Part shown: one piece after another, positions 3,971-62,217 of the stretch
Layout of the letters: every line of letters begins with the position of its first letter
How positions within the stretch are numbered: the stretch's first letter is position 1
Assembly (NCBI GenBank): GCA_900469625.1
Contig: UBXV01000002.1
Location: 124,001-188,000, forward strand
Reading direction: 5' to 3'
DNA length: 64,000 nt
DNA from: Hyphomicrobiales bacterium
GTDB taxonomy: Bacteria; Pseudomonadota; Alphaproteobacteria; Rhizobiales; Rhizobiaceae
Made by a program: the position numbers and the translations under genes
Notes under the pieces: model-generated
What the model was told of the DNA's origin: nothing
Databases searched by the model: none
What the model saw: the letters and a program-made list of their open reading frames with translations, nothing else

Positions 3971-3989
3971 GGATGTCACTCGTGTCGGC

Positions 3990-4952
3990 TCAGCGCTTTG
4001 CCTGCTTGGCGCGCACGTCGAGCCAAACGGCGACAAGGATCACGAGGCCCTTGACGATGAGCTGGTAGAAATAGGGGACGGACAGCATGTTCATGCCGTT
4101 GTTCATCACGCCGATGATGAGCGCGCCGATGAGCGTGCCGACCATGGTGCCGACGCCGCCGGCAAGCGAGGTTCCGCCAAGCACGGCTGCGGCGATGGCG
4201 TCGAGCTCGTAGCTCATGCCGGCATTGGTCTGGGCGGAGAAGAGCCGGGAGGAGAGAAGCACGCCGCTGATCGCCGCCATCACGCCCGAAATCATGAAGA
4301 TGATGATCTTGATGCGATCGACCTTGATGCCCGAATAGATGGCCGCTTCGCGGTTGCCGCCGGTGAGGTAAGCACGGCGCCCGAAGCTGGTCTTGCTGAG
4401 CACAATCTGATTGATGACGAAGAGCACGGCAACGACCCAGATGATGATCGGCAGGCCGAGGAAACCTTCGGTGCCAATGGCGGTCCATGTCGAATTGTCG
4501 ATCATCGCCGGCGCGCCGTTGGTCGGCAGGCTGACGAGGCCACGATAGATGCCCATGGTGGCAACGGTGACGATGAAACTCGGTAGCAGCAGCTTTGCCG
4601 TCAGGACGCCGTTGAGCATGCCCATCAGCGCGCCCGCCAGGATCGTTACAGCAAGCGCCGGGCCGAATCCGAGCCCGAAGGCGAAACATTGTGCCCCGAC
4701 CATGCCCGCGACCGCGATGATCGAGCCGACTGAAAGATCGATCTCGCCGAGCAGGATCACCCAGGTCATGCCGAAGGCGGCAATCGCGATCACAGCCACC
4801 TGCTGCAGGATGTTCATGAAGTTGACGACCGACATGAAGCGGGGATTGAGGAAGGAAAAGATGACGCAGAGCATCACCAGCGAAAGAAGGATGCCGCCAT
4901 ATTGCTTCATTGCCCTGACGAGGGCGGCCTGGGCTGCAGTTTGCTGGGTCAT
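3990..4952 (-). CDS. Sugar ABC transporter permease (RbsC family)
   Basis: 320 residues with about 8-10 hydrophobic segments. It carries the family motif for this permease class (GMTWVILLGEIDLSVGSI, about residues 60-77) and the late AAVLGGTSLAGGVGT loop near residue 245. It forms the transmembrane channel of a carbohydrate-uptake (CUT2) ABC transporter, presumably as a homodimer because only one permease gene is present. Its ATG overlaps the stop codon of the ATPase gene by 4 bp (ATGA at 4949-4952), indicating translational coupling. Confidence 0.93.
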   Translation of the reverse strand: MTQQTAAQAALVRAMKQYGGILLSLVMLCVIFSFLNPRFMSVVNFMNILQQVAVIAIAAFGMTWVILLGEIDLSVGSIIAVAGMVGAQCFAFGLGFGPALAVTILAGALMGMLNGVLTAKLLLPSFIVTVATMGIYRGLVSLPTNGAPAMIDNSTWTAIGTEGFLGLPIIIWVVAVLFVINQIVLSKTSFGRRAYLTGGNREAAIYSGIKVDRIKIIIFMISGVMAAISGVLLSSRLFSAQTNAGMSYELDAIAAAVLGGTSLAGGVGTMVGTLIGALIIGVMNNGMNMLSVPYFYQLIVKGLVILVAVWLDVRAKQAKR

Positions 4953-6460
4953 GATTGGAAACCTGTCGCGTGCGCCATGATCGTTTCGGGAGTGAGGTCG
5001 GTGCCTGAGAGGGTCGCGCCGATGACGCCCTCATGCATGACGACGACGCGGTCGCTCATGCCGAGCACTTCCGGCAGCTCGGAAGAGATGAGAAGGATCG
5101 CCGTGCCTTCGGCCGCCAGCTGGCGGATGATCTTGTAGATTTCGAATTTCGCGCCGACATCGACGCCACGGGTCGGCTCGTCGAGGATCAGCACCTTCGG
5201 CCGGGTCAAAAGCCATTTGGCGAGCACGATCTTTTGCTGGTTGCCGCCGCTGAGGGCGCCGGCCGGCGTATCGAGCGAGTGCGTCTTGATCGCTAACCGG
5301 CCGACTTCGGCAGCGGCCGCCTTGCGCTCGGCGCTACCGCGGGTAAAGCCGAAGGGGCCGGTGAAATCGGGAAGGGCAGCCATGGAGATGTTCCACTCGA
5401 CGCTGTGGCCGAGCACCAGGCCCTCTTCCTTGCGGTTCTCGGTGACGAAGCCGATGCCGCGGGCAATCGCTTCGGCCGGCGAGCGGAAGCGCACGTCCTT
5501 GCCGTCGAGCCGCACGGTTCCATCGGCATTCTTCATGCCAAACAGCGCATTCATGACCTCCGAGCGGCCGGAACCGACCAGGCCGAAGAAGCCGAGGATT
5601 TCGCCCGGGCCGACCGCAAAGGAAATATCGGCGAATTCGCCTTGGCGTGTCAGGTTCTCAACGGCGAGCATTGGCGCGCCCTGCGTCGAGCGTTCATGGC
5701 TCGGCGGTGGATAGATCTCCTCCATCCGGCGTCCGACCATGAGCGCGATCAGCGCCTCGATGGTGACGTCGTTGCGGTCATGGGTGGAGACATATTCGCC
5801 GTCGCGGATGACGGTAATGTCGTCGCTGAGCCGCATGATCTCTTCCATGCGGTGGGAAATGTAGATAACGGCAACGCCACGGCTTTTCAGCCGGCCGATG
5901 ATATCGAACAGGATCTCGGCCTCGCTGTCGCTGAGCGACGAGGTCGGCTCGTCGAGAATGACGACCTTGGCGTCGTGGCTGAGGCCCTTGGCGATCTCGA
6001 CCAGCTGTCGCTGCGCGATCGAGAGATTGCCGACCTTCTCGGTGACGTCGATGGGCAGGCCGAGGTCGGCGACGATCGCCTTTGCCCTGCTCACGAGCGC
6101 CTTGTCGTTGATGAAGCCGAATGAGCGCGGCTCGCGGGTCGCAAGGATGTTCTCCGCCACCGTCAGGTTGTTGCAGAGGCTCAGTTCCTGAAAGACGATC
6201 GCAAGGCCGAGCGCCGACGCCTGCTGCGGGTTTGCTGGGCGGTAGGGCTGGCCGTCGAGGGTAATCTCGCCTGACGTCGCGTTGTGTACGCCGGCAAGGA
6301 TTTTCATCAGTGTCGATTTGCCGGCGCCGTTTTCACCGAGCAGCGTGTGCACGCGTCCACGGCGCACATCGAGCCGCATGCTCTTCAGCGCCGCGACCTG
6401 CCCGAAGGATTTGGTGACATTGCTGATCTTGAGAACGGTGTCCGTGGTCGAACCATGCAT
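4949..6460 (-). CDS. Sugar ABC transporter ATP-binding protein (RbsA/CUT2 family)
   Basis: 503 residues, two tandem nucleotide-binding domains as in RbsA. NBD1 has Walker [10 protein letters not shown], a signature-like LSIAQRQLVEIAKGL and Walker B VVILDEPTSSLS. NBD2 has the degenerate Walker A typical of the family (GLVGSGRSEVM), LSGGNQQK and [12 protein letters not shown]. It energises import of the sugar bound by the product of 6637-7527. Start chosen at the ATG at 6460 because AAGGAGG lies 5 bases upstream; the frame stays open further but without a Shine-Dalgarno sequence. The gene is separated from the binding-protein gene by 176 bp that include a strong stem-loop. Confidence 0.94.
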   Translation of the reverse strand: MHGSTTDTVLKISNVTKSFGQVAALKSMRLDVRRGRVHTLLGENGAGKSTLMKILAGVHNATSGEITLDGQPYRPANPQQASALGLAIVFQELSLCNNLTVAENILATREPRSFGFINDKALVSRAKAIVADLGLPIDVTEKVGNLSIAQRQLVEIAKGLSHDAKVVILDEPTSSLSDSEAEILFDIIGRLKSRGVAVIYISHRMEEIMRLSDDITVIRDGEYVSTHDRNDVTIEALIALMVGRRMEEIYPPPSHERSTQGAPMLAVENLTRQGEFADISFAVGPGEILGFFGLVGSGRSEVMNALFGMKNADGTVRLDGKDVRFRSPAEAIARGIGFVTENRKEEGLVLGHSVEWNISMAALPDFTGPFGFTRGSAERKAAAAEVGRLAIKTHSLDTPAGALSGGNQQKIVLAKWLLTRPKVLILDEPTRGVDVGAKFEIYKIIRQLAAEGTAILLISSELPEVLGMSDRVVVMHEGVIGATLSGTDLTPETIMAHATGFQS

Positions 6461-6598
6461 GGCGGCCTCCTTGGATCGCGCCGAAAAGCATCTCCGGCGT
6501 TGCCGCGCCTTGGCGTCTCGCAAGACGGACAAAGCTGCAGCGACACTCTGGATTGCCGCATGTTTCATGCCGCAGGCCGGAGACGTTCGCGTAGGGGT

Positions 6599-21069: not shown

Positions 21070-21085
21070 ATGAATTATTATTCAT
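21070..21085. promoter_or_regulatory. Candidate operator of the sugar operon
   Basis: Perfect inverted repeat ATGAAT-TATT-ATTCAT, with a third ATGAAT half-site at 21089-21094. It lies just upstream of the -35 element at 21099. The layout resembles binding sites of SorC/DeoR-type sugar regulators, and a SorC gene is the fourth gene of this operon. Confidence 0.5.
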
Positions 21086-21098
21086 GCCATGAATTATA

Positions 21099-21127
21099 TT
21101 GACAGATGCCTTGGCCATAGTTTTAAT
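21099..21127 (+). promoter_or_regulatory. Sigma-70-type promoter of the 21.2-31.1 kb operon
   Basis: TTGACA (21099-21104), 17-bp spacer, TTTAAT (21122-21127). This is a near-consensus promoter about 105 bp upstream of the binding-protein start codon. Confidence 0.65.
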
Positions 21128-21233: not shown

Positions 21234-22262
21234 GTGCGCACTTTTTTGAGCACGACCGCGCTGGCGGTCATTGCAACGACGTTTCTGGCTGGCCCCGCCA
21301 GCGCGGAGACGGCCAATCCGTTTCGCTGCGAACCCGGCGAAAAATACGTGATGAACGTCATGGTATCGGGCGTCGAATACTGGTTCCCGGTCTATGAAAT
21401 GTTCAAGCAGGCCGGCCAGCAGTTCGGCTGCGAGACCGAATACACCGGCACGCCGGAATATGACGTCAACAAGCAGATCGCCACCTTCGACCAGGCGCTG
21501 GCGCAGAACCCGGCAGGCATCCTCGTTCACCCGATGAACTCGGATCCCTTCATCGAGCCGATCAACCGCGCCATCGACCAAGGCACGGCAGTCGTCACCT
21601 TTGCGGCCGACTCGCCGCTCTCCAAGCGCATCTCGTTCATCACGTCGGATAACACACGCGAAGGCGTCTATGCCGCCGATGCGATCGCCGAGAAGATGGG
21701 TGGCAAGGGCGAATACGCCGTTCTGGAAAACCCCGGCCAGGACAACCACGACAAGCGCATCACGGCCTTCGTCGGCCGCATGGCTGAAAAATGGCCCGAC
21801 ATGAAGCTCGTCGGCCGTGCCGCCTCCAACCAGGATCCGAACAAGGCCTACCAGGGCCTGATGAGCCTGATCCAGGCAAACCCTAACCTCGGCGCGGTCT
21901 TCATGCCTGAAGCCAACTCGGCGATCGGTGCAGCCCAGGCCAGCAAGGAAAGCGGCGGCAAGGTTCTCGTCATGTGCGCCGACGTCAACGCCAACATTCT
22001 CGACATGATCAAGGCCGGCGAAGTGTTCGGCTCGATCAACCCGAACCAGGGCATGCAGGGTTACATGGGCTTCATGCTGCTGTGGCTTGCCAAGCATCCC
22101 GAACTCATCGATCCGATGAACGACGCCAAGCGTTCCGGCTTCAATCCGATGAGCATTCCCTTCGTCGACAACGGTCTGTCGATCGTCACCGCCGCCAATG
22201 CGGACGACTTCTACTGGGACAAGTACCTGAAGCGCCGCGGCACCAAGGGTATTGACGAGTAA
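21234..22262 (+). CDS. Sugar ABC transporter substrate-binding protein
   Basis: 342 residues. Start at the GTG 21234, directly after a GAGGAGGA Shine-Dalgarno sequence. A signal peptide ends at AGPASA (about residue 24). The mature part has the RbsB-type fold: VNKQIATFDQALAQNPAGILVHPMN, then the hinge-proximal MPEANSAIGAAQA. It opens a nine-gene operon that also encodes ATPase, permease, SorC regulator and four enzymes. Compared with LsrB (AI-2 binding) the equivalent positions hold AADS, GQDN and PEAN, so some ligand residues differ. The ligand is unknown; a polyol or short sugar is likely from the enzymes downstream. Confidence 0.92.
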   Translation: MRTFLSTTALAVIATTFLAGPASAETANPFRCEPGEKYVMNVMVSGVEYWFPVYEMFKQAGQQFGCETEYTGTPEYDVNKQIATFDQALAQNPAGILVHPMNSDPFIEPINRAIDQGTAVVTFAADSPLSKRISFITSDNTREGVYAADAIAEKMGGKGEYAVLENPGQDNHDKRITAFVGRMAEKWPDMKLVGRAASNQDPNKAYQGLMSLIQANPNLGAVFMPEANSAIGAAQASKESGGKVLVMCADVNANILDMIKAGEVFGSINPNQGMQGYMGFMLLWLAKHPELIDPMNDAKRSGFNPMSIPFVDNGLSIVTAANADDFYWDKYLKRRGTKGIDE

Positions 22263-22275
22263 GGGTCTTTGACAT

Positions 22276-22299
22276 GGCTATCCGGATGTCCGGATAGCC
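22276..22299 (+). other. Intercistronic stem-loop after the binding-protein gene
   Basis: Perfect 10-bp stem (22276-22285 with 22290-22299) and a 4-nt loop, 14 bp after the stop codon. No U-run. Equivalent in position to the hairpins at 6599, 38002 and 57667. Confidence 0.65.
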
Positions 22300-22327
22300 C
22301 GTCGAACGCATGAGAGTGGAGAAGGCG

Positions 22328-23875
22328 ATGATATCGCAGCCGGTCCTTCAGGTCCGCAACGTCACCAAGCACTTCGGGGCTGTGAAGGCGTTGACCAATG
22401 TGGATTTCAACCTTGAAAAAGGCGAGATCCACGCGCTTTGCGGCGAGAACGGCGCCGGAAAATCCACCCTTATGAACATCATCGCCGGCGTGCTGCAGCC
22501 GAACGAGGGCGAGATCCTCGTCGACGGCACGCCGACGAAAATCGCATCGCCCGCCGCGGCCCAGACGCTCGGCATCGGTCTCGTGCACCAGGAGATTGCG
22601 CTCTGCCCGGATGCGACGGTGGCGGAAAACATGTTCATGGCGGCGACCAACCGGCGGCGCTCGCCGCTGATGAACTACGCCGCGCTTGCCCGCGACGCGC
22701 AAAAGGTAATGAACCGGCTGGCGCCGATCGACGTGCGCTGCAAGGTTGCTGACCTCACCATTTCCAGCCAGCAGCTGGTCGAGATCGCCAAGGCGCTGAC
22801 GCTCGACTGCCGCGTGCTGATCCTCGACGAGCCGACAGCGGCACTGACGGAGGCCGAGGCGCAGGCGCTGTTCGGCATCATCCGCGACCTGAAGGCGGCG
22901 GGCATTTCGATCATCTACATCAGCCATCGCATGGCCGAGATTTTCAGCCTTTGCGACCGTGTCACCGTCTTTCGCGACGGTCGCCATGTCTCGACGGAGC
23001 GCATCGCCGATGTGACGCCCGATGACGTCGTGCGCCGCATGGTCGGCCGCGAGATCACCCAGCTCTATCCGCCGAAGCAGGCAGAGGGCGAAAAGTCCGG
23101 CGAGGTCATCCTGTCGGTACGCGGTCTTGGCGACGGCGAGCGTATCGCCGATGTCGGCTTCGAGCTGCGCAAGGGCGAAATCCTCGGGATCGGCGGGCTG
23201 ATCGGCTCCGGCCGAACCGAGATCGCGGAAGCCATCTGCGGCCTGCGCCCCAAGGTGCGCGGCGACGTGAAACTGCACGGCAAGACGCAGGCGATCGGCA
23301 ATTACCGAGACGCTGTCGATGCCGGCATCGTGTATCTCTCCGAGGATCGCAAGGGATCCGGTGTGTTCGTCGACATGTCGATCGCCCAGAACATTTCGGT
23401 ACTGGACCTGAAGACGCTGACCGGGCCGCTTGGGCTGATGAACGCGAAGGCGGAAGCGGACCTCGCCAGCGAGTTTACCCGGCGGCTCGGCGTGCGCATG
23501 GGCGGCATCGCCATGCCGGTGTCGTCGCTGTCGGGCGGCAACCAGCAGAAGGTGGCGATCGCCAAGCAGCTTGCGGTGCGGCCGAAGGTCATTCTCATGG
23601 ACGAGCCGACGCGCGGCATCGACGTGGGCGCAAAATCGGAAATTCACCGGCTGCTGCGCGACCTCGCGCGCTCCGGCATCGGCATCGTCGTCATCTCGTC
23701 GGAACTGCCTGAGCTTCTGGGGCTTTGCGACCGGGTTCTGGTCGTTCGCGAAGGCGGCATTGCCGGCGAACTCGGAGAAGCCGAGATGTCGGAGGAGGCG
23801 GTCATCCGCCTGGCATCCGGGGTCGGGTCACGGGACGAACGACAAGAAATAAGGGCGGCCGAGCATGTTGCCTGA
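22328..23875 (+). CDS. Sugar ABC transporter ATP-binding protein (RbsA/CUT2 family)
   Basis: 515 residues from the ATG at 22328, preceded by GGAGAAGG. Two NBDs: NBD1 with GENGAGKST, signature-like [15 protein letters not shown] and [15 protein letters not shown]2 with the degenerate Walker [29 protein letters not shown] and [14 protein letters not shown]. It powers the importer formed with the adjacent permease. The last residues (about 500-515) run past the family core. The permease gene starts 28 bp downstream. Confidence 0.94.
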
Positions 23876-23903
23876 GACAAGCAGAGTGAATGGGGAGGCG
23901 GAA

Positions 23904-24893
23904 ATGGCAGTCGATACGGTGGTTGCAACGCAGGTGCAGGTTCCGGCCTGGCGGCGGATCGGCACGATGCGCGAGGCAGGGCTCATTGCCATCATCCTCG
24001 CGCTCGGCGTCATCATGACCTTCGCGTCGCCGCACTTTCTCACCTTCGGCAACATGCGCGCCATGCTGATGAGCTTCTCGGTCGAAGGCATCGTCGTCGT
24101 CGGCATGACGATCCTTTTGATCGTCGGCGGCATCGATCTGGCGGTCGGCTCTGTCGTCTGCTTCGCCATGGTGCTGGCCGGGTCGCTGTTTCTTGCCGGC
24201 GTCGATCCCTGGACGGCTTCGCTCGTCGGGATCCTTGCAAGCAGCCTTATCGGCGCCATCATGGGTTTCTTCGTCACCGTGGTCGGGCTCAACCATTTCA
24301 TCACGTCGCTTGCGGCCATGGTGATCGTGCGTGGGCTCTGCCTGGTCATTACCAAGGGCACGCCGCTGTCGCTCTTCACCCTGCCGGCATCGTTCAAGGC
24401 GGTCGGCCAGGGCACGTTCAACGGCATCCCCTACGTCATCCTGATCTTCATCGCCGTCGTCGTCCTGTTCGACTTCCTGCTGCGCCGGGCGACCGCTTTT
24501 CGCAAGGTGTTCTATACCGGCAGCAACGAGAAGGCGGCGCTTTATTCCGGCATCAAGACCAAGCAGGTGAAGTTCTGGGTGACGGTGCTCTGCTCGACGC
24601 TCGCCGGTGTCGCCGGCGTCATCTACATGTCGCGCTTCGGCGCCGCCACCCCCACGTTCGGCGTCGGCATGGAGCTCAACATCATCGCCGCTGCCGTCAT
24701 TGGCGGGGCGTCGCTGAACGGCGGTTCGGGCACGATCCTCGGCGCCATCCTCGGCATCGCGCTGCTTTCGGTGGTGACCAGCTCGTTGATCCTGCTCGAT
24801 GTGTCCGTCTATTGGCAGGACATGATCAAGGGCTGCATTCTGCTCGCCGCCGTCTCCATCGACCATTTCCTGCATACGCGGAAGGCCAGCTGA
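23904..24893 (+). CDS. Sugar ABC transporter permease (RbsC family)
   Basis: 329 residues. Start at the ATG 23904 behind GGGGAGG; an ATG at 23865 would overlap the ATPase gene and has no better ribosome site. About nine hydrophobic segments, with the family motifs GMTILLIVGGIDLAVGSVV (about residue 67) and AAAVIGGASLNGGSGT (about 262). It is the only permease gene in the operon, so it probably works as a homodimer. The regulator gene follows after 2 bp. Confidence 0.93.
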   Translation: MAVDTVVATQVQVPAWRRIGTMREAGLIAIILALGVIMTFASPHFLTFGNMRAMLMSFSVEGIVVVGMTILLIVGGIDLAVGSVVCFAMVLAGSLFLAGVDPWTASLVGILASSLIGAIMGFFVTVVGLNHFITSLAAMVIVRGLCLVITKGTPLSLFTLPASFKAVGQGTFNGIPYVILIFIAVVVLFDFLLRRATAFRKVFYTGSNEKAALYSGIKTKQVKFWVTVLCSTLAGVAGVIYMSRFGAATPTFGVGMELNIIAAAVIGGASLNGGSGTILGAILGIALLSVVTSSLILLDVSVYWQDMIKGCILLAAVSIDHFLHTRKAS

Positions 24894-24895
24894 CC

Positions 24896-25906
24896 ATGCC
24901 GATCGCCAATCCCAGTCAGAACATCCTCTCCAGCGCTCGCGAGGAACTCGTGGTCGCCCGGCAGATGCACCAGGCGCTGGTTCTGCACTTCCTCGAAGGC
25001 CTGACCCAGTCGCAGATTGCCGACCGGCTCGGAATTTCCCAGCCGACCGTCAACCGCCTGATCAAGCGTGGCCGCCAGCTCGGCCTCGTCGAGATCAAGA
25101 TCAAGTCGCCGATCGAACCGCTCGTCGACATGGAAGAGCAATTGCTGGCGCTCGGCGGCATCAGCCGTGCGGTCGTCGTGCCGACCGTGTCGGACAATCA
25201 GCAGACGGCGCTGCAGGCGGTGGGCGAGGCAGCAGCCCGCCTGTTGATGGAGGAGATCGCCGACGGCGACACCATCTGCATCACCGGCGGCAAGGGCGTC
25301 AGCGCCGTCGTTGCCGGCCTGCATGCCTCGCGGCGCCTCGATATCGAGGTTATCCCGGCAACGGGCTGCGTCCAGGGCAAGCACTATACCGACGTCAATC
25401 ATGTCTCGACACTGATGGCCGAGCGGCTCGGCGGCAGGTCCTACCAGATCCATGCGCCGCTCTTTGCCGACAGCGCTGCCGAGCGCGCCATGCTGATCAA
25501 CATGCGCTCGGTGGCGGACGTCTTCAAACGGGCGCGTGAAGCCAAGGTGGCGATCGTCGGCATCGGCTCGATCCTTTCCGACGATTCGAGCTACTACGAC
25601 TTGCACCCGTCATCGAGCACCGACCGCGCCGCGATAGAGCGCTCGGGCGCGAGCTGCGAACTGCTGGCACATCTGCTCGATGACCAGGGCCGCGTCTGCG
25701 ACTACAGCCTCAACCGTTCGCTCGTGTCGCTGACACTCGACGAATTCGCGTCGATCCCGACCAAGATCGGCGTTGCTAGCGGACCGAACAAGGCCGGGCC
25801 GATCCTCAGCGTCCTGCGCGGCAGGCATCTCGATACACTCGTGACCGACGAGGCGACCGGCGAGCGCATCCTTGCCATGGCAAGCGAAAAGGGACTTTCG
25901 GCATGA
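24896..25906 (+). CDS. SorC/DeoR-type sugar-responsive regulator (EryD/LsrR-like)
   Basis: 336 residues. The N-terminal helix-turn-helix (GLTQSQIADRLGISQPTVNRLIKRGRQLGLVEI, about residues 38-70) is of the SorC family. A phosphosugar-binding domain with the NagB-like fold follows (about 85-330; ICITGGKGVSAVVAGL, IVGIGSILSDDSS). Family members (SorC, LsrR, EryD) release DNA when they bind a phosphorylated sugar or polyol made by the operon's own kinase. This one is embedded in the operon and probably binds the repeat at 21070-21094. It starts 2 bp after the permease gene and overlaps the next gene by 4 bp. Confidence 0.93.
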   Translation: MPIANPSQNILSSAREELVVARQMHQALVLHFLEGLTQSQIADRLGISQPTVNRLIKRGRQLGLVEIKIKSPIEPLVDMEEQLLALGGISRAVVVPTVSDNQQTALQAVGEAAARLLMEEIADGDTICITGGKGVSAVVAGLHASRRLDIEVIPATGCVQGKHYTDVNHVSTLMAERLGGRSYQIHAPLFADSAAERAMLINMRSVADVFKRAREAKVAIVGIGSILSDDSSYYDLHPSSSTDRAAIERSGASCELLAHLLDDQGRVCDYSLNRSLVSLTLDEFASIPTKIGVASGPNKAGPILSVLRGRHLDTLVTDEATGERILAMASEKGLSA

Positions 25907-26898
25907 GCAGTGAACAGTTGACGCGCGAGATCGGCCGCTCCGGTGTCAAGGCATCCGCCGTCGGGCTCGGCACCTGGGCGATCGGTGGCTGGATGTGGGG
26001 CGGAACGGACGAAGGAGAGTCCATTGCCGCCATCCAGGCCTCGCTCGATGCCGGTGTGACCCTGATCGACACGGCGCCCGCCTATGGCCTCGGGCGCTCC
26101 GAGGAAATCGTCGGCAAGGCGCTTGCCGGTCGCCGCGACAAGGCCGTCATCGCCACCAAATGCGGCCTCGTCTGGCACACGACGAAGGGCAAGCATTTCT
26201 TCGACCAGGACGGCAAGCCCGTTCATCGCTACCTCGGTCGCGACGCCATCATGCACGAGGTGGAACAGAGCCTGAAGCGGCTCGGGACCGACTATATCGA
26301 TCTCTATATCACCCATTGGCAGGACCCGACGACACCGATCGAAGAGACAGTGCGCGCACTCGAAGACCTGAAGAATGCCGGCAAGATCCGCGCGATCGGC
26401 GCCAGCAATGTCGACCGATCCGAGCTGGAGGCCTACATCGCCACCGGCCGCCTCGATGCGATCCAGGAACGCTTCAGCATGATGGACCGCGAGATCGAGG
26501 CGGAGCTTCTGCCGCTGACCACGAAAAACGGCGTGGCGACGCTCAGCTATTCCTCGCTCGCCCTTGGTCTGCTGTCCGGCACCGTCGGTCCGGACCGGGT
26601 GTTTTCAGGCGACGATCAGCGCCGCGACAATCCGCGCTTCTCGGTTGGCAACCGCGAAAAGGCGACGGCCTTTGCCGGAGCGATCCGGCCGATTGCCGAA
26701 AAGCACGGCGCCAGTATTGCGCAGACGGTCATTGCCTGGACGCTGGCGCAACCCGGTGTGACGTTCGCGCTTTGCGGTGCGCGCAATCCGGCGCAGGCGC
26801 TCGACAACGCTCGCGCCGGAACCATCCGGCTCGACGGCCAGGATCTCGCGGCGATCGACGAAGCGATAGCGGCGAAACTCGCCCAAATGGATAGGTAA
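25903..26898 (+). CDS. Aldo/keto reductase
   Basis: 331 residues. NADPH-dependent (beta/alpha)8-barrel oxidoreductase. The AKR catalytic tetrad can be placed: Asp in LIDTAPAYGLGRSEE, with Tyr four residues on, Lys in ATKCGL, and His in DLYITHWQDP. It would interconvert an aldehyde or ketone with an alcohol in the cytoplasm. It overlaps the SorC gene by ATGA. In the proposed pathway it reduces the aldehyde left after aldol cleavage, or oxidises the imported polyol; the direction is inference. Confidence 0.92.
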   Translation: MSSEQLTREIGRSGVKASAVGLGTWAIGGWMWGGTDEGESIAAIQASLDAGVTLIDTAPAYGLGRSEEIVGKALAGRRDKAVIATKCGLVWHTTKGKHFFDQDGKPVHRYLGRDAIMHEVEQSLKRLGTDYIDLYITHWQDPTTPIEETVRALEDLKNAGKIRAIGASNVDRSELEAYIATGRLDAIQERFSMMDREIEAELLPLTTKNGVATLSYSSLALGLLSGTVGPDRVFSGDDQRRDNPRFSVGNREKATAFAGAIRPIAEKHGASIAQTVIAWTLAQPGVTFALCGARNPAQALDNARAGTIRLDGQDLAAIDEAIAAKLAQMDR

Positions 26899-26910
26899 CG
26901 GACCGCCATC

Positions 26911-28659
26911 ATGAACCGAGAAGAGATCTTTGACGGGCTCCGCCAGAGCCCGAAGGTGGACGTCTGCGTGCTGGGCGGCGGCATCAACGGCCTCAGCGTC
27001 TTTCGCGAGCTGGCGCTGCAGGGCGTCAATGTCGTGCTCGTCGAGAAACACGATTTCTGTTCCGGCGCCAGCGCCGCATTGTCTCGCATGGTTCATGGCG
27101 GGCTGCGCTATCTCGAAAACGGTGAATTCAGTCTGGTGCGGGAATCCCTCGTCGAGCGCGACCGGCTGCTGCGCAACGCGCCGCACTATGTCGGTCCGCT
27201 GCCGACCACGGTCCCGGTCTTCGATTTCTTTTCCGGTATCGCCAACGGCGCCGTCCGCTTCCTCGGTCTTTCCCGTCGGCCGAGCCGCCGCGGCGCGGTT
27301 GTCATCAAGGCGGGGCTCGCCATCTACGATTTCCTGACGCGCAAGCGCGCCCTGATGCCGCGCCACGAATTCCGCGGGCGGCGCTCGACGCTTGGCCGGT
27401 GGCCGGCGCTCAATCCCGCAATCAAGAGTTCGGCGACCTATTACGACGCCTGGGTGAGCCAACCCGAGCGGCTCGGCGTCGAGCTGCTCGAGGACGCGCT
27501 GTCCGCCGGTGCCGGTGTGCGTGCTGTCAACTATGCCGAACTCAGGCTCACAGCGCCGGGACGCTACGCGGTCAGGGACACGATCAGCGGCGCGGAGGTT
27601 TCGATCGAGCCGACCCTGATCGTCAACGCCACCGGCGGCTGGATCGACATCGCCAACCAGGGCCTGTTTTCCGAGCCCGCCCGTCCGGCACCGTTGATGG
27701 GCGGCACCAAGGGGTCGCATCTGATTGTCGACAACGACGACCTTACGCGGGCGCTCGACGGGCACATGATCTACTACGAGAACGAGGACGGGCGCATCTG
27801 CATCCTGTTTCCCTATCTCGGCAAGGTTCTGGTCGGCTCCACCGACATTCGCGTCGACGACCCGGAAACCGTACGCTGCGAGACGGAGGAGCGCGACTAC
27901 ATCCTGCAGTCGCTCGCCTTCGTCCTTCCGGCGATAAAGATCAGAACCGAGGAGATCGTCTTCCAGTTCTCAGGGGTCCGGCCGCTGCCGGCTAGCAAGG
28001 ACAGTTTTACTGGCCGCATACCGCGTGATCACTATTGCACCTTCGTCGAGACCGCCGACGGCGGTCCGCCAGTGCTGTGCATGATCGGCGGCAAGTGGAC
28101 CACGTTCCGCTCCTTCGGCGAGTTGGCGGCCGACCAGGTGCTGGAGCGGCTGGCGCGGGCGCGGCGCATCTCGACATCAGAGCGTCCGATCGGCGGTGGG
28201 CGTGATTTTCCGGCCGATCGCGAAGCCTGGATCGCCCGGGTCGCCGCGGCGAGCGGCCTTTCGTCGGAGCGCGTCGAAACACTGTTCAAGCGCTACGGGA
28301 CGGATGCAGAGCGCATTGCGGCCTTCACGGCGGCAGCACCCGATACACCGCTTCCGCATGCCGGTTACTCGAGCCGCGAAATCCAGCTGCTGATCCGCAG
28401 CGAGAAGGTCGAGCATCTCGACGACCTGCTGCTACGTCGCACCACGTTGGCAATCACCGGCGAACTGTCTCTCGACATGGCGGATGCCGTGCTGGCGCTG
28501 CTCGCGGCCGAAAAACGCTGGTCTGCGGCACGTCAGGCGCAGGAGCGCGCCCGTTTTCTCACCCTTCTCCTCGAACGCCACGGCGTCGACGAAGACACGC
28601 TTTCCGCACGGAACGAACAAAGGAGTGCATTATGCGAAACAACCGCAAGGTCCGGATGA
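26911..28659 (+). CDS. FAD-dependent glycerol-3-phosphate dehydrogenase-like protein (GlpD/EryB family)
   Basis: 582 residues. The N-terminal Rossmann motif VCVLGGGINGLSVFRELALQG (about 17-37) binds FAD. The GlpD family segments SRMVHGGLRYLENGEFSLVRE, GTKGSHLI, and the C-terminal cap domain are present. These enzymes oxidise a sn-glycerol-3-phosphate-like polyol phosphate and pass electrons to quinones at the inner membrane. With an FGGY kinase and a SorC regulator in the same operon it resembles EryB, which oxidises L-erythritol phosphate. The last 28 bp overlap the following gene. No general glycerol genes (glpF/K) are nearby, so glycerol itself is not the likely substrate. Confidence 0.9.
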   Translation: MNREEIFDGLRQSPKVDVCVLGGGINGLSVFRELALQGVNVVLVEKHDFCSGASAALSRMVHGGLRYLENGEFSLVRESLVERDRLLRNAPHYVGPLPTTVPVFDFFSGIANGAVRFLGLSRRPSRRGAVVIKAGLAIYDFLTRKRALMPRHEFRGRRSTLGRWPALNPAIKSSATYYDAWVSQPERLGVELLEDALSAGAGVRAVNYAELRLTAPGRYAVRDTISGAEVSIEPTLIVNATGGWIDIANQGLFSEPARPAPLMGGTKGSHLIVDNDDLTRALDGHMIYYENEDGRICILFPYLGKVLVGSTDIRVDDPETVRCETEERDYILQSLAFVLPAIKIRTEEIVFQFSGVRPLPASKDSFTGRIPRDHYCTFVETADGGPPVLCMIGGKWTTFRSFGELAADQVLERLARARRISTSERPIGGGRDFPADREAWIARVAAASGLSSERVETLFKRYGTDAERIAAFTAAAPDTPLPHAGYSSREIQLLIRSEKVEHLDDLLLRRTTLAITGELSLDMADAVLALLAAEKRWSAARQAQERARFLTLLLERHGVDEDTLSARNEQRSALCETTARSG

Positions 28660-29474
28660 ACCGTCTTTTTGGCACGGGGCGCTGCCTGGACGTGGCGATC
28701 GATCATGGCGTCTGCAACGAGCCGTCCTTCCTCGACGGTCTCGAGAATATGGAGGCTGTCGTCAAGGCGCTGGTCGATGCACGGCCGGACGCGATCCAGA
28801 TGAACTATGGCCAGGCCGATCTGCTGCAGGATATCCCCGGCAAGGACAAGCCGGCCCTGGTCATGCGCATCGACATGGGCAACCCGTACAACCGCATTCG
28901 TCACCGCGATATGTGGGCGGTGCTGCAGAACGAGGCCGAGCCGCTGATCGGCGCGCTGGAGATGGATGCCGCCTGCGTGGTCGTCAATCTGTTCATGCTG
29001 CCGGACGAACCGGATCTGTTCCGCCAGTGTGTTGCCAACATTTCCCGCGTGCGCGCCGACTGCGAAAAATACGGCATGCCGCTGATGATCGAGCCGCTTG
29101 TCATGCAGCCGGTCACCGAGCGCGGCGGCTACATGGTCGACGGCGATGCGGAAAAGATCGTGACGCTGACGCGGCTCGCCCGCGAGATGGGCGCCGACAT
29201 CGTCAAGGCCGATCCGACGACCAATGCGGAGGATTTCCACCGCGTTGTCGAGGCGGCGCGCTGCCCGGTTCTGGTGCGTGGCGGCGGCAAGGAAGACCTG
29301 CGCGCCGTGTTCGACAAGTCCGCGGCCTTGATGCGACAGGGCGCTGTCGGCATGGTCTACGGGCGCAACATCTACCAGCATGCAAACCCGAGCGCCGTCG
29401 TCCGGGGCTTGATGGCCATCGTGCACGACGACGCCGATGGTGCGGCCGCCTTCGCATTGTACCAGCAGGGCTGA
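28632..29474 (+). CDS. DhnA/LsrF-type class I aldolase (DeoC/LacD superfamily)
   Basis: 280 residues from the ATG at 28632, preceded by AAAGGAG within the end of the upstream gene. It has the TIM-barrel features of the DhnA/LsrF group: LDVAIDHGV at the N-terminus, a Lys in ADIVKADPTTN (about residue 195) at the place of the Schiff-base Lys, and VLVRGGGKED (about 215) plus GMVYGRNIYQH (about 240) forming the phosphate-binding end. Known members cleave or thiolyse phosphorylated ketoses. Here it is predicted to split the ketose phosphate made by the GlpD-like enzyme, giving DHAP and a short aldehyde. Substrate is inference. Confidence 0.88.
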   Translation: MRNNRKVRMNRLFGTGRCLDVAIDHGVCNEPSFLDGLENMEAVVKALVDARPDAIQMNYGQADLLQDIPGKDKPALVMRIDMGNPYNRIRHRDMWAVLQNEAEPLIGALEMDAACVVVNLFMLPDEPDLFRQCVANISRVRADCEKYGMPLMIEPLVMQPVTERGGYMVDGDAEKIVTLTRLAREMGADIVKADPTTNAEDFHRVVEAARCPVLVRGGGKEDLRAVFDKSAALMRQGAVGMVYGRNIYQHANPSAVVRGLMAIVHDDADGAAAFALYQQG

Positions 29475-29528
29475 TTGCAGCCGAAGCTGGTACAAGGACG
29501 ACGATCCGAACCTTGGGAGGGGTTCTTT

Positions 29529-31061
29529 ATGGCAGACTATCTTCTGGGACTCGACGCCGGAAACACCGTGATCAAGGCGGTGATTTTCGACCTCGAGGGC
29601 AACGAGATCGCGGCGGCCGCGCAGGAGGGGCACAGTCGTGTGCCGCGGCCGGGGCACGTCGAGCGCGGGCTCGAGGAACTGTGGACCCATGCCCGCGCCG
29701 TCATCCGCCAATGCGTCGAACGCGCCGGCATCCGCGCCGAAGAGATCGTCGCGATCGGTTGCGCCGGTCATGGCAACGGTCTCTATGCTCTCGACGCGCA
29801 GGGAGAGCCGCTGCTTGGCATCCAGTCGCTCGATACGCGCGCTGCCGGATTGGTGGAAGAATGGAAGGCGCAAGGGGTCGGCGACCGGACCTATGCCATC
29901 GGTCGCCAGCGACCCTGGCCATCGCAGACGCCGACGCTTCTTGCCTGGCTCAAGCGCTACCAGCCGGAGACCTTCGCCAGGATCGGCACGGTGTTCCTGT
30001 GCAAGGATTTCATCGTCAACCGCCTGACCGGGCGACGTGTCAGCGACGTCTCCGACATGACCGGCTGCGGTCTGCTCAACGTCGTCAACCGGCGTTACGA
30101 TCGCGACCTGATGGCTGCCTTCGATCTCGGGGAAGCAACCGGCCTCTTGCCGGATCTGGCCGAGAGTGCAGATGTCGTCGGCACGGTCACGCCGGAGGCA
30201 GCAGAACAGACCGGGCTTGCCGCTGGCACACCGGTGGTCGGCGGTCTCTTCGACGTCATCGCCTCTGCCGTCGGCTCGGGCGTGACGCGAACCGGCGCGG
30301 CCTCCATCATCGCCGGAACCTGGAGCATCAACCAGGTGATCATCGACGGCCCGGATCTTTCCGGCCCGGTCTTCATGTCGTCCACCTTCGATCGCGGCCG
30401 TTACATGGCCATCGAGTCGAGCGCGACCTCGGCTGCCAATCTCGAATGGCTGGTGCGTGAGTTCTTTGCCGAAAGCGGCATCGAGGACGGGCGCTCGCCC
30501 TACGATGTCTGCTGCGCGCTTGCAGCCGAAATCGAGCCTGCCGCCAACGACCCGATCTATCATCCGTTTCTCTATGGCGCGCAGCAGGACGGCAATGCCC
30601 GGGCCGGTTTCTACGGGGTTGCCGGCTGGCACACGAAGGGGCATCTCGTGCGCGCGGTTCTGGAAGGTGTCGCCTTCGGCCATCGCCAGCACATCGCCAC
30701 CATGCGCGCGGCAGGCGCGAGTTTCGACGAAGCTGTGCTTTCAGGCGGCGGGTCGCGCAGCCTGATCTGGCCCCAAATCTTTGCCGACGTGCTCGGCGTT
30801 CCGGTGTCTGTCGCCCGCTCGCGCGAAACCGGCGCGCTCGGGGCCGCGATTGCCGCCGGCACCGGAGCTGGCATCTTTGCCGATTTTTCTGAGGGTGCGG
30901 CTGCGATGGTCAGGACGGAACGGCATTACCGGCCAGATCCGGCAATGACGCGCCATTACGAGAGACGCTACGGCGTTTACCGCGATATCGCCGATGCGAT
31001 GGGCCCGATCTGGCGACGGCTTTCGAACGCCGGCGCCGAGGTCCAGGAGGCGGCAGCCTAG
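29529..31061 (+). CDS. FGGY-family carbohydrate kinase (LyxK/EryA/LsrK-like)
   Basis: 510 residues from the ATG at 29529, behind GGGAGGGG. N-terminal phosphate-binding loop LGLDAGNTVIKAVIFD; then GCAGHGNGLYALDAQGEPL, TPVVGGLFDVIASAVGSG and C-terminal LSGGGSRSLIWPQIFADVLG, all typical of FGGY kinases. The pattern around GHGNGLY and the SFDV-like GGLFDV is closest in my memory to L-xylulose kinase (LyxK) and erythritol kinase (EryA). It phosphorylates the imported polyol or ketose in the cytoplasm and probably makes the ligand sensed by the SorC regulator. Last gene of the operon. Confidence 0.9.
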   Translation: MADYLLGLDAGNTVIKAVIFDLEGNEIAAAAQEGHSRVPRPGHVERGLEELWTHARAVIRQCVERAGIRAEEIVAIGCAGHGNGLYALDAQGEPLLGIQSLDTRAAGLVEEWKAQGVGDRTYAIGRQRPWPSQTPTLLAWLKRYQPETFARIGTVFLCKDFIVNRLTGRRVSDVSDMTGCGLLNVVNRRYDRDLMAAFDLGEATGLLPDLAESADVVGTVTPEAAEQTGLAAGTPVVGGLFDVIASAVGSGVTRTGAASIIAGTWSINQVIIDGPDLSGPVFMSSTFDRGRYMAIESSATSAANLEWLVREFFAESGIEDGRSPYDVCCALAAEIEPAANDPIYHPFLYGAQQDGNARAGFYGVAGWHTKGHLVRAVLEGVAFGHRQHIATMRAAGASFDEAVLSGGGSRSLIWPQIFADVLGVPVSVARSRETGALGAAIAAGTGAGIFADFSEGAAAMVRTERHYRPDPAMTRHYERRYGVYRDIADAMGPIWRRLSNAGAEVQEAAA

Positions 31062-42175: not shown

Positions 42176-45100
42176 ATGAGCGCACGCGACACCGGCAGCT
42201 GGGACTTCTGGATCGACCGTGGCGGCACCTTCACCGACGTGATCGGCAGGGACCCGCAGGGCGTTCTGCATGCGCGCAAGGTGCTGTCGGAAAATCCGGA
42301 AGCCTACCGCGATGCGGCCGTGCAGGGCATCCGCCTGCATCTGGGTCTGCCGACCGGCGCGCCCATTCCGGCCGGCCTCATCGGCGAAGTGCGCATGGGC
42401 ACCACGGTCGCGACCAATGCGCTGCTCGAGCGCAAGGGTGAACCGCTGGCGCTTCTGACGACGCGTGGCTTCCGCGATGCGCTTCGTATCGGCTACCAGG
42501 AACGCAAGAACATCTTCGCGACCGAGATCATCAAGCCTGAAGCGCTCTATAAGGACATCGTCGAACTCGGCGAACGGGTGCTGGCCGACGGCACGGTCGA
42601 GCAGGCGCTCGATGAGGCCGAGGCGCGCCAGGCGCTGACGGCGCTGCGCGACAAGGGCTACGACACCGTCGCGATCGTCTTCATGCATGCCTACAAATAT
42701 CCCGAGCACGAGGCGATGGTTGCCCGGATCGCCCGCGAAATGGGCTTCGAGCAGGTCTCGGTCAGCCACGAAGTCTCGCCGCTGATCAAATATGTCGGCC
42801 GCGGCGACACCACCGTCATCGACGCCTATCTCTCGCCAGTGCTGCGTCGCTACGTGGCGCAGGTCTCGAGCGAACTCGACGTCGAGCGCTCCGGCGCGCG
42901 CGTCATGTTCATGATGTCGTCGGGCGGGCTAACGGCCGCCGACATGTTCCAGGGCAAGGATGCGATCCTCTCCGGCCCGGCCGGCGGCGTCGTCGGCCTT
43001 GCCAAGACCGGGGAAGCGGCCGGCTTCGACCGGGTCATCGGCTTCGATATGGGCGGCACGTCCACCGACGTTGCGCATTTCGATGGCGAATATGAGCGTG
43101 CCTTCGAGACGGAAGTGGCCGGCGTGCGCGTGCGCGCGCCGATGATGCTGATCCACACGGTCGCCGCCGGTGGTGGCTCGATCCTGCATTTCGACGGCGA
43201 GCGCTTCCGCGTCGGCCCGGATTCGGCCGGCGCCAATCCCGGTCCCGCCTGTTACCGCAACGGCGGCCCGCTGGCCGTCACCGACGCCAATGTCATGCTC
43301 GGCAAGTTGATGCCGGACTTCTTTCCGGCGCTGTTCGGGCCTGAGCAGAACGAGCGGCTCGATGTCGAGACGGTGCGCACGCGTTTTAAGGCGATGGCCG
43401 ATGAAATCGGCGACGGCCGCAGCCCCGAGGACGTCGCCGACGGCTTCATCCGCATTGCGGTCGCCAACATGGTCGAGGCGATCAAGAAGATCTCCGTCCA
43501 GCGCGGCTACGACGTGACGCGTTATGCGCTCAGCTGCTTCGGCGGCGCCGGCGGCCAGCACGCCTGCCTGGTTGCCGACCAGCTCGGAATGAAGAGCATC
43601 CTGGTGCATCCGATGTCCGGCCTGCTTTCGGCTTATGGCATGGGCCTTGCCGATATCCGCGCGACCCGCCAGAAGGCGCTCGGCGTCGCTCTCGACGACA
43701 AGGCGCCGGCGGCACTGGCAGCGCTTGGCGCGGACCTGCAGGTCGAATGCCTCGGTGAACTCGAAGCGCAAGGGATCGCCCGCGACGAGATCCGCACCCA
43801 CCTTCGCGCCCATGTTCGCTACTCCGGCACCGACACGGTCCTGGCGGTCGATGCGCGCTTCCCCGACCATGACGATATCGCCCGCCTGCGCGCCGAATTC
43901 GAGACGCTGCACAAGCGCCGCTTCGGCTTCGTCGCCGAAAACAAGGCGCTGGTGATCGATGCGGTCGAAGTCGAGACCGTCGGCGGCGGCGCTGCACAGA
44001 TGGAAGGCGAGGGTCTCGCGACCACGGAAGGCGCGCCTGCCCTCAGCCGCAGCACCCGCTTCTATTCGCAGGGCCAGTTCCACGAGGCGCCGGTCGCGCT
44101 TCGCTCCGACATCAAGCCCGGCCAGCGTCTCGACGGTCCCGCGATCATCATCGAGCCGAACCAGACCGTCATCGTCGAGGACGGCTGGCAGGCGGAACTG
44201 ACGGCCAAGGACCATATCGTGCTTCGCCGGGTCAAGGCGCTGCCCGAGCGCAGCGCGATCGGCACCAAGGCCGATCCGGTGATGCTCGAGATCTTCAACA
44301 ATCTCTTCATGTCGATCGCCGAACAGATGGGCGTGACGCTGCAGAACACCGCCTATTCGGTCAACATCAAGGAGCGGCTCGACTTCTCCTGCGCGGTCTT
44401 CGACACCAGGGGCAACCTCGTCGCCAACGCGCCGCACATGCCGGTGCACCTCGGCTCCATGGACGCTTCAGTCGCAACCGCGATCCGCGAGAACCCGGTC
44501 ATTCATCCCGGCGACGTCTTCCTGATCAATGCGCCCTATAACGGCGGCACGCATCTGCCCGACCTGACGGTCTGCACGCCCGTCTTCGACGACGAGGGTC
44601 GTGAGATCCGCTTCTGGGTCGCCAGCCGCGGCCACCATGCCGATATCGGCGGTATTTCGCCCGGCTCCATGTCGCCGCTTGCGACCAACATCGAAGAGGA
44701 AGGCGTCTATATCGACAACTTCAAGCTCATCGATGCCGGCCGGTTCTGCGAGACCGAGCTCGAGGCACTGCTCAACGGTGCGCGTTATCCGGTGCGCAAC
44801 ATCGTCCAGAACGTCAACGACCTGAAGGCGCAGGTCGCCGCCAACGAAAAGGGCGTGGCCGAGCTGAAGAAGATGATCGCGCAGTTCGGCGAAGATGTCG
44901 TGGAGGCCTATATGGGCCACGTCCAGGACAATGCCGCCGAAAGCGTGCGCCGCGTACTCGACCAATTGCCGGACGGCGAATTCTCCTACGAGATGGACCA
45001 GGGCTGCAAGATCGTGGTGAAGATCACCGTCGATCGCGACAAGCGCGAGGCGACCGTCGATTTCACGGGCACGTCGCAGCAGCGCGCAGACAACTTCAAT

Positions 45101-45796
45101 GCGCCGGCACCGGTCACCCGTGCGGCCGTTCTCTATGTTTTCCGCGTGCTCGTCGAAGCCGACATCCCGATGAATGCCGGCTGCCTCAGGCCGATCCGCA
45201 TCGTCATCCCGGAAGGCACGATGCTGACCCCAAGCTATCCGGCCGCCGTCGTTGCCGGCAATGTCGAGGTCAGCCAGGCCGTGACCAACTGCCTGTTCGG
45301 CGCCGTCCAGAGCCAGGCGGGCGCGCAGGGCACGATGAACAACCTGACCTTCGGCAATGCGCATTACCAGTATTACGAGACGATCTGCTCGGGTGCGCCG
45401 GCCGGACCAGGATATAACGGCGCCGATGCGGTCCACACCCACATGACCAACTCGCGCCTGACCGATCCCGAGATCCTCGAGACCCGCTTCCCGGTGGTGC
45501 TGGAAGATTTCCACATCCGCCGCGGTTCCGGCGGCAAGGGCAAGTGGTCGGCAGGCGACGGCACCAAGCGCACCATCCGCGCCCGCGAAAAGCTCGACTT
45601 CGCCATTCTCTCCGGCCACCGCCGTGTTGCCCCCTTCGGCATCAAGGGCGGCGAGGCGGGCAATCTCGGCCAGAACCTCGTGCGCCGCAACGACGGCCGC
45701 ACCGAGGAGCTGTCGGGTTGCGCCCACACGGTTCTGGAGGCCGGCGAGGCCTTCACCGTGGTCACGCCGACGGGCGGCGGCTACGGCCGGGACTGA
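42176..45796 (+). CDS. ATP-dependent 5-oxoprolinase, fused HyuA-HyuB type
   Basis: 1206 residues. Residues about 1-690 are a HyuA domain: [19 protein letters not shown] at the N-terminus and the nucleotide-binding [11 protein letters not shown] near 285. Residues about 700-1206 are a HyuB domain, beginning [20 protein letters not shown] and containing [14 protein letters not shown] and GGGYGRD at the end. The fused architecture and length match eukaryotic-type 5-oxoprolinase, which opens 5-oxoproline to glutamate with ATP. N-methylhydantoinase or acetophenone carboxylase relatives usually have separate subunits, so 5-oxoprolinase is preferred. It is divergent from a peptide importer operon with which it probably shares a regulator. 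Confidence 0.92.
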
Positions 45797-56193: not shown

Positions 56194-56631
56194 GATGTTC
56201 TCCTCTGGTTGGGGACCAGTTGTTGTTCTTTGCCCAGATTTCACACTATGGGGTGCGGGCAAATTGCGGCTAGCCGGTCGGCGAGCAACGAAGTGTTGCC
56301 GTTCCAGCAACAGCTACAGCGCTGAACGCGGCACTTGCAGCGCCGCACGTCGCATCTCTTCAATTCATGGTCGCAGTCCTGTCCTTGGGTCCGTGCGGCG
56401 TCGCATGCTCACGCGAATCTGCCGCCTTGCCGGCCCTCGCTGTTGCACGGGACGGCACGCGGGTCAAAGGCGACGGTGGATCGCGGAGACGTCGCCAAAG
56501 CTTCCGCCGCCGGTTCACCGCGGTCCTCAACGAAAATTCTGCGAAAAATCACCAAAAATGGCTGAAAACCCCCATTGAAATCGATTACATTTTCTGGCTT
56601 CATGGTTCTCGCAAGATTTTGGGAGGATCTT
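56194..56631. promoter_or_regulatory. Divergent intergenic region between the DUF3100 and third sugar operons
   Basis: 438 bp without a gene. The part near 56520-56630 is AT-rich and carries the LacI-type operator at 56576-56589; the rest is GC-rich and shows no recognisable element. Promoters for both operons must lie here, but I find no confident -35/-10 pair. Confidence 0.6.
56576..56589. promoter_or_regulatory. LacI-family operator
   Basis: TGAAATCGATTACA matches the LacI-family consensus TGNAANCGNTTNCA at every fixed position, with the central CG. It is 43 bp upstream of the binding-protein start codon. The operon encodes its own LacI-type regulator (61173-62195). Confidence 0.7.
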
Positions 56632-57657: not shown

Positions 57658-57666
57658 GCGCCTGAA

Positions 57667-57694
57667 GCCGGGCGGATCGCCTGATCCGCCCGGC
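57667..57694 (+). other. Intercistronic stem-loop after the binding-protein gene
   Basis: Perfect 12-bp stem (57667-57678 with 57683-57694), 4-nt loop, 9 bp after the stop codon and 31 bp before the ATPase gene. No U-run. Same position as the hairpins at 6599, 22276 and 38002. Confidence 0.7.
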
Positions 57695-57725
57695 GCCCCG
57701 GACCCGACTTTACGGACCAAACCCC

Positions 57726-62195: not shown

Positions 62196-62217
62196 CCTGA
62201 CAATCTGGGAGAAGAGA

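Follow-up and report, generated by a model that had tools for sequence, protein, structure and literature searches.

Which compound is degraded through the products of a compact operon in a Hyphomicrobiales bacterium, and by what route, is the question raised by the 64,000-nucleotide stretch analysed here (contig UBXV01000002.1, positions 124,001 to 188,000; hereafter the window), which belongs to a 6.54 Mb genome. The operon, located at 21234-31061, joins the genes of a sugar ATP-binding cassette (ABC) importer and a SorC-type regulator to those of an aldo/keto reductase, a GlpD-like flavoprotein, a DhnA/LsrF-fold aldolase and an FGGY kinase. The reading that we prefer, and to which we would give about an even chance, is that it serves the catabolism of a five- or six-carbon polyol (or deoxy-polyol), which would be phosphorylated by the kinase, oxidised by the GlpD-like enzyme and split by the aldolase into dihydroxyacetone phosphate (DHAP) and an aldehyde. 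It is plausible that this is an ordinary-looking catabolic operon with a variant pathway, and possible that the pathway is a new one.

The argument starts from the dehydrogenase. Enzymes of the GlpD type convert R-CHOH-CH2-OPO3 to R-CO-CH2-OPO3, and seven positions of E. coli GlpD that we take to be its phosphate-site residues (H50, R54, Y55, H233, R317, R332 and K354) are kept in EryB and in all 16 operon sequences aligned (that of the window and 15 relatives), which makes a substrate of the type R-CHOH-CH2-OPO3 likely. At the position of GlpD T270 the window has serine, as do 14 of the 15 relatives, the remaining one having an alanine. The protein displays both the flavin adenine dinucleotide (FAD) fold and the phosphate-site residues of the GlpD/EryB-type phosphopolyol dehydrogenases. 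The NCBIfam equivalog cut-off for GlpD itself is missed (271 of the 360 bits needed), and the dehydrogenases of the operon form one clade (support 100/100), 28-32% identical to GlpD and EryB.

The product of a GlpD-type reaction, R-CO-CH2-OPO3, is also what is split by a DHAP-forming class I aldolase, and the order of the steps proposed here follows from this match. Lysine K192 of the operon aldolase aligns with a lysine of MJ0400, wild-type LsrF and the T. tenax aldolase, presumably the Schiff-base residue of all three, and the protein combines this lysine with the fold of the DhnA/DeoC-LacD class I aldolases. Its structural model (predicted local distance difference test, pLDDT, 86.5) is best matched by MJ0400 with DHAP (Z 31.6, rmsd 2.6, 262 aligned residues), followed by LsrF (Z 30.6), the fructose-bisphosphate (FBP) aldolases of Slackia (28.8) and T. 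tenax (27.8), and the LacD and YihT types (about 22). On the grounds of sequence and model, a 2-ketose-1-phosphate aldolase activity releasing DHAP is predicted.

The aldolase, which shares 30% identity with LsrF, belongs to a clade of its own; the sister clade (L137-L141, L170) stands at 48-53% identity. The neighbours of the sister-clade genes in L138-L141 and L170, the L137 neighbourhood being left aside, are Gfo/Idh-type genes together with, variously, PfkB kinase, D-lyxose-isomerase-fold and sugar importer genes; the family assignments come from tests in L140 and L170 and from reading by eye in the others. The position of the sister clade among sugar-catabolic genes supports the polyol route, as do the E. 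coli ydjGHI genes, annotated as a trio of reductase, kinase and aldolase with the same logic. The sister-clade loci themselves apparently represent a separate sugar route. A third aldolase type (43-44% identity) is found in L143 and L144 beside what by eye appear to be a D-lyxose-isomerase-like open reading frame (ORF), amine-oxidase-like and transporter-like genes.

The kinase is 34% identical to LyxK, 32% to LsrK, 28% to EryA and 27% to XylB, and groups with LyxK, itself a long branch, apart from XylB, LsrK, EryA and GlpK (fork 98/96). The operon kinases form one group in the tree, with weak support (71/92). On stereochemical grounds, a LyxK-like kinase would presumably yield an L-type terminal phosphate that GlpD accepts. 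The stereochemistry of GlpD predicts that the alditol has to be capable of providing such an L-type end, which would favour xylitol, ribitol, L-arabitol, sorbitol and galactitol and disfavour D-arabitol and D-mannitol. The polyol, brought in by the ABC importer, would thus be phosphorylated at a terminal CH2OH by the FGGY kinase; the GlpD-like flavoprotein, to judge from its phosphate-site residues, would oxidise the CHOH adjacent to the phosphate, giving a 2-ketose-1-phosphate, and pass the electrons to the quinone pool; and the DhnA-type class I aldolase, as its lysine and fold suggest, would cleave this ketose-1-phosphate, via a Schiff base, to DHAP and a short aldehyde. The aldo/keto reductase may reduce the short aldehyde or else convert an aldose into the polyol, and the GMC oxidoreductase of many relatives may catalyse a further oxidation step that has been dispensed with in the lineage of the window. 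The substrate is probably larger than four carbons, since a C4 ketose-1-phosphate would give formaldehyde.

All eight genes have intact reading frames and lie on the + strand in the order and with the tight spacing described in the first-pass annotation, whose "nine-gene operon" was a miscount, eight genes having been listed there too. Successive intergenic gaps measure 47, -11, 2, -4, 12, -28 and 54 bases. The most likely start codon of the kinase gene is ATG 29529, preceded by a purine-rich stretch, and not TTG 29475. The G+C content of the operon (0.61-0.66 per 2 kb) is close to that of the remainder of the window, and the nearest named relatives, in which the aldolase is 97-99% identical, are Ensifer and Sinorhizobium strains.

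Table 1. Genes of the operon and its upstream element (window positions).
Feature	Position	Strand	Remarks
Putative operator/promoter	21071..21127	+	near-palindrome TGAATTATTATTCA at 21071-21084, then TGAATTATATTGACA at 21090-21104
Substrate-binding protein (Peripla_BP_4)	21234..22262	+	GTG start; LsrB cut-off missed; nearest solved relative AraP arabinose-binding protein
Sugar ABC transporter ATPase, RbsA/XylG type	22310..23875	+	family profile matches
Sugar ABC transporter permease (BPD_transp_2)	23865..24893	+	family profile matches
SorC/DeoR-type sugar-binding regulator	24896..25906	+	PF04198; LsrR cut-off missed
Aldo/keto reductase	25903..26898	+	best NCBIfam match YdjG methylglyoxal reductase, below cut-off
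GlpD-like FAD dehydrogenase	26911..28659	+	PF01266 and PF16901; own clade apart from GlpD and EryB
DhnA/LsrF-fold class I aldolase (DeoC/LacD fold)	28632..29474	+	PF01791; predicted Schiff-base lysine K192
FGGY carbohydrate kinase	29529..31061	+	groups with E. coli LyxK

Comparison with other genomes indicates that these genes belong together. Of the related loci met in one scan of genome contigs, 80 were kept and more existed. In 77 of them all eight genes are found with order and strand unchanged (with shortened matches for GlpD in L022 and for SorC in L050), while the other three (L034, L057, L073) are cut by contig ends, which argues that the arrangement is not due to chance. A ninth gene, coding for a GMC oxidoreductase, directly follows the kinase gene in 64 of the 80 loci. 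No match to it was found in the other 16, including the Ensifer adhaerens-type loci nearest to the window, and it is absent here. The best GMC copies of the window's genome are 64% and 60% identical and lie on other contigs, and are therefore probably paralogues. The aldolase gene was detected in each of the 16 examined genomes of the genus (E 1e-100), in 30 of 297 sampled genomes of the order (E 1e-30; 23 with at least 70% identity, seven with only the sister types at 44-53%), in nine of 385 genomes of the class (E 1e-80) and in ten of 398 of the phylum (E 1e-50), the last two counts including the genome of the window. The bacteria with this conserved block live in soil or in association with plants; orthologues of the operon occur in species of Rhizobium, Sinorhizobium and Shinella and in environmental Brucella, with the laboratory strain S. 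meliloti 1021 among them.

Another 26 operon loci, most of them from other families, were compared, eight more operon-type matches (that of the window genome included) not having been fetched at length. Each of the 26 has kinase, GlpD-like enzyme and aldolase together (with a kinase match of only 30% in L169), and 17 have the full eight-gene set; SorC was found in 24, the reductase in 23 and a binding protein of the window type in 21. A GMC gene lies beside the kinase gene in 16 and not in the other ten, the contig of one of these (L133) ending at that point. The three-enzyme set persists even in loci with a changed or missing reductase, GMC or importer, and it is because of this spread that we regard the three enzymes as the constant core of the system and importer, SorC, reductase and GMC as its variable parts. 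A different importer, with two permeases, is encoded in L125, L129, L131 and L132. In three of these four loci a zinc-type alcohol dehydrogenase, 56-100% identical to that of L132, is inserted between kinase and GMC. The alternative binding protein was read in L129, L131 and L132, and the L132 copy has neither a solved relative at E 1e-10 nor an NCBIfam match. Outside the class a single operon-type member was found, L169, in which the gene order is changed and both the kinase gene and the GlpD-like gene lie on the opposite strand.

The region upstream of the binding-protein gene is shared as well: the palindrome TGAAATATATTTCA (TGAATTATTATTCA in the window) together with TGAATTATATTGACA recurs with small changes across the window and 17 hand-chosen loci. 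TTGACA (21099-21104), contained in TGAATTATATTGACA, stands 17 bases ahead of TTTAAT (21122-21127). The palindrome has a single site without mismatch in the whole genome, upstream of the operon, and when up to one mismatch was allowed within the window, both strands of this one site were returned (chance mean 0.03; one of 100 shuffles reached two). TGAAWTATATTGACA is present in 14 of 199 sampled family genomes, those carrying the operon not having been counted separately, with one copy in each; 13 of the copies adjoin the binding-protein gene and the remaining one (L198) lies away from the operon. The genome-wide operator search revealed no convincing further regulon member, its three other single-mismatch sites having as neighbours, by eye, a polysaccharide-type gene set and unrelated ORFs. 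The generic promoter scan, in which promoters and terminators showed no clear excess over shuffles, did not list the promoter at 21071-21127. As far as the sequence can tell, this element is a putative operator at which the SorC protein would act to control a single promoter.

Several observations weigh against the polyol route. The operon has no known activity or phenotype. LyxK, the nearest characterised kinase, is annotated for a ketose and not for a polyol, and the nearest solved relatives of the binding protein are sugar binders and not polyol binders, the model (pLDDT 79.3) being closest to the arabinose-binding AraP (Z 37.0, rmsd 1.8, 289 aligned residues) and then to a Bacillus halodurans protein (Z 36.7). 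The column of Y146 of the T. tenax aldolase, which we take to be its general acid/base tyrosine, holds a leucine in the operon aldolase (the T. tenax chain listed is apparently a mutant with F), so that the cleavage chemistry may differ. The importer and SorC of the window type were not seen in the 19.5 kb stretch of L171. Finally, the reductase is missing from three of the 26 further operons, and its place in the route is therefore uncertain. The first-pass annotation had proposed import, phosphorylation, oxidation and aldol cleavage, followed by conversion of the aldehyde by the reductase; the first four steps fit the kept residues and the DHAP-bound fold match, whereas the role of the reductase appears to be secondary.

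Two alternatives fit part of this evidence, namely the AraP-like binding protein, the LyxK-like kinase and the aldolase close to MJ0400 and LsrF, better than the polyol route does. According to the first, which we consider unlikely but deserving of attention, an aldose such as a pentose is imported, reduced to the alditol inside the cell and then processed in the same way, which would amount to an isomerase-free, reductive-oxidative pentose route to DHAP and glycolaldehyde. AraP, the nearest solved binding protein, binds arabinose, and the operon holds a reductase of a fitting family: its best family is YdjG (284 of the 550 bits needed), and it contains the stretches DTAPAYG, TKCG and THWQ, which presumably hold the Asp-Tyr-Lys-His tetrad of the aldo/keto reductases. 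The three further operons that lack the reductase nevertheless retain the binding protein (L135 at 64%, L176 and L177 at 67% identity), a point that concerns the operon loci only, reductases elsewhere in these genomes not having been looked for.

The second alternative, which appears more doubtful still, starts from a ketose. The LyxK-like kinase would phosphorylate its far end, the GlpD-like enzyme, acting on the carbon beside the phosphate, would produce a 2,4- or 2,5-diulose phosphate, and the aldolase would release DHAP and an acyl unit or a 2-oxoaldehyde, the latter being removed by the YdjG-like aldo/keto reductase. The grouping of the kinase with LyxK, a ketose kinase, speaks for such a scheme, and so do the nearness of the aldolase to MJ0400 and LsrF, both of which act on oxo-ketose phosphates, the nearness of the reductase to the YdjG methylglyoxal reductase and the lack of conservation of the FBP aldolase tyrosine. 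The scheme, however, needs two unusual steps instead of one, and an enzyme oxidising a ketose phosphate in such a manner is not known to us. If true, it would represent a type of carbohydrate catabolism, proceeding through a diketose phosphate, of which we are aware of no description, although no search was aimed at it.

A variant of the erythritol (ery) operon is very improbable. EryA-like, EryB-like and SorC-like genes do stand together, and EryA, EryB and EryD match the window at 28-32% identity (EryA 28%, EryB 32%), but EryC, TpiA2 and RpiB have no match in the window at E 1e-3, a C4 substrate would end in formaldehyde, and the idea is contradicted also by a separate, full erythritol-type set on contig C60 of the same genome (L146), the products of which are 54% (EryA), 66% (EryB), 69% (EryC), 69% (TpiA2) and 61% (RpiB) identical to those of the annotated ery operon. 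Least credible of all is an lsr operon for the uptake and breakdown of autoinducer-2 (AI-2), which the homologues of LsrK, LsrF, LsrR and LsrB in the window (23-32% identity) might suggest and which is ruled out by the four missed NCBIfam equivalog cut-offs (LsrB 53 of 384, LsrK 238 of 528, LsrF 108 of 297 and LsrR 139 of 486 bits), by the lack of an LsrG match in the window at E 1e-2 and by the retention of two of seven LsrB ligand positions; to our knowledge, moreover, the dehydrogenase has no place in AI-2 breakdown. The seven positions, which we take to be K35, D116, D166, Q167, P220, A222 and D267 (all seven letters fit E. coli LsrB), are reduced to P220 and A222 in 13 of 13 aligned binding proteins, although the alignment is distant, with a gap at D267, and single columns are uncertain. 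LsrB is not among the 50 fold matches listed for the binding-protein model, which has no bearing either way.

The first-pass annotation was right that the operon lacks the isomerases and LsrG and that the ligand positions of LsrB are only partly retained in its binding protein. Its description of the locus as a combination of ery-like and lsr-like parts is not supported: the kinase is nearer to LyxK, the dehydrogenase belongs to a clade of its own, and the aldolase has a nearer sister group than LsrF. A recent mosaic of the two operons is ruled out by the separate dehydrogenase and aldolase clades, the fixed gene order and the one promoter element. As an observation apart, an LsrA/LsrC-like ABC importer is encoded on the - strand at window positions 3976-6568, with 39% identity to LsrA as against 37% for the ATPase of the operon.

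The copy of the operon in S. meliloti 1021 lies at about 515-527 kb of pSymB. We infer that it comprises SMb20496 (GMC) to SMb20504 (binding protein), because SMb20495, SMb20504 and SMb20505 serve as anchors with nine genes in between. In the available excerpts of the papers cited here, SMb20495 is a large tetratricopeptide repeat protein (PMC5498481), SMb20504 a sugar-binding protein (PMC12542648), and SMb20505 supplies the third anchor (PMC4053727). The same excerpts place SMb20504, at -3.81, in module 6, which is enriched for proteins lowered on phaR deletion (PMC12542648), and describe the pSymB deletion dB163 as failing on psicose, dulcitol and D-glucosamine, with SMb20484-88 assigned as the genes for psicose (PMC4961836); galactitol has a tagatose route (PMC10433430). 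By tag number SMb20484-88 are near the S. meliloti operon, which dB163 may or may not cover. In the open-licence literature searched, no function or substrate is assigned to SMb20496-SMb20504, though an assignment in a subscription journal is possible, nor is this gene combination described. An orthologous cluster already assigned to a known substrate, named by the first-pass annotation as something that would overturn its proposal, was likewise not encountered there. By position, the S. meliloti copy (L091/L092) adjoins SMb20495, which is Clr-regulated and has a reported role in controlling the secondary infection of Medicago roots (PMC5498481); the available text of PMC10127613 names only SMb20495.

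If true, the polyol route would provide an isomerase-free entry of a plant or soil polyol into glycolysis via DHAP and would give a function to eight or nine genes so far named by family only. The presence of the operon in S. meliloti, a model symbiont, makes the route directly testable by deletion.

Elsewhere in the window, a second sugar-importer set (Peripla_BP_4 binding protein, ATPase and permease) followed by a Gfo/Idh/MocA oxidoreductase gene occupies positions 56575-63462 and is probably another catabolic operon. A fused hydantoinase/oxoprolinase A and B protein of 1206 residues is encoded at 42176-45796, and a chemotaxis receptor gene follows at 46081.

Among known systems, the ery operon of Alphaproteobacteria resembles the present one in its FGGY kinase, its GlpD-family dehydrogenase with the same phosphate-site residues, its SorC-family regulator and its ABC importer. 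The kinase and dehydrogenase of the window are, however, only 28% and 32% identical to their ery counterparts, and an aldolase stands in the place of EryC, TpiA2 and RpiB. The AI-2 lsr operon of E. coli shares the RbsABC-type importer, the SorC-family regulator, the FGGY kinase and the LsrF-fold enzyme, and the route of LsrF likewise ends in DHAP, but the operon described here misses the Lsr cut-offs, lacks LsrG and possesses in addition the GlpD-like dehydrogenase and the reductase. E. coli ydjG-ydjH-ydjI, the octuluronate-1-phosphate aldolase route, is similar by annotation in that a YdjG-family reductase is encoded beside a kinase and a ketose-1-phosphate aldolase; its kinase and aldolase are annotated for another substrate, and that stretch has neither a GlpD-like step nor a binding-protein importer. 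In the galactitol and sorbitol routes of S. meliloti (SmoS dehydrogenase, smoEFGK importer), as excerpted from PMC10433430, polyols are catabolised within the same bacterial family, with the difference that there a nicotinamide adenine dinucleotide (NAD) dehydrogenase oxidises the polyol first, whereas in the route preferred here phosphorylation would precede oxidation.

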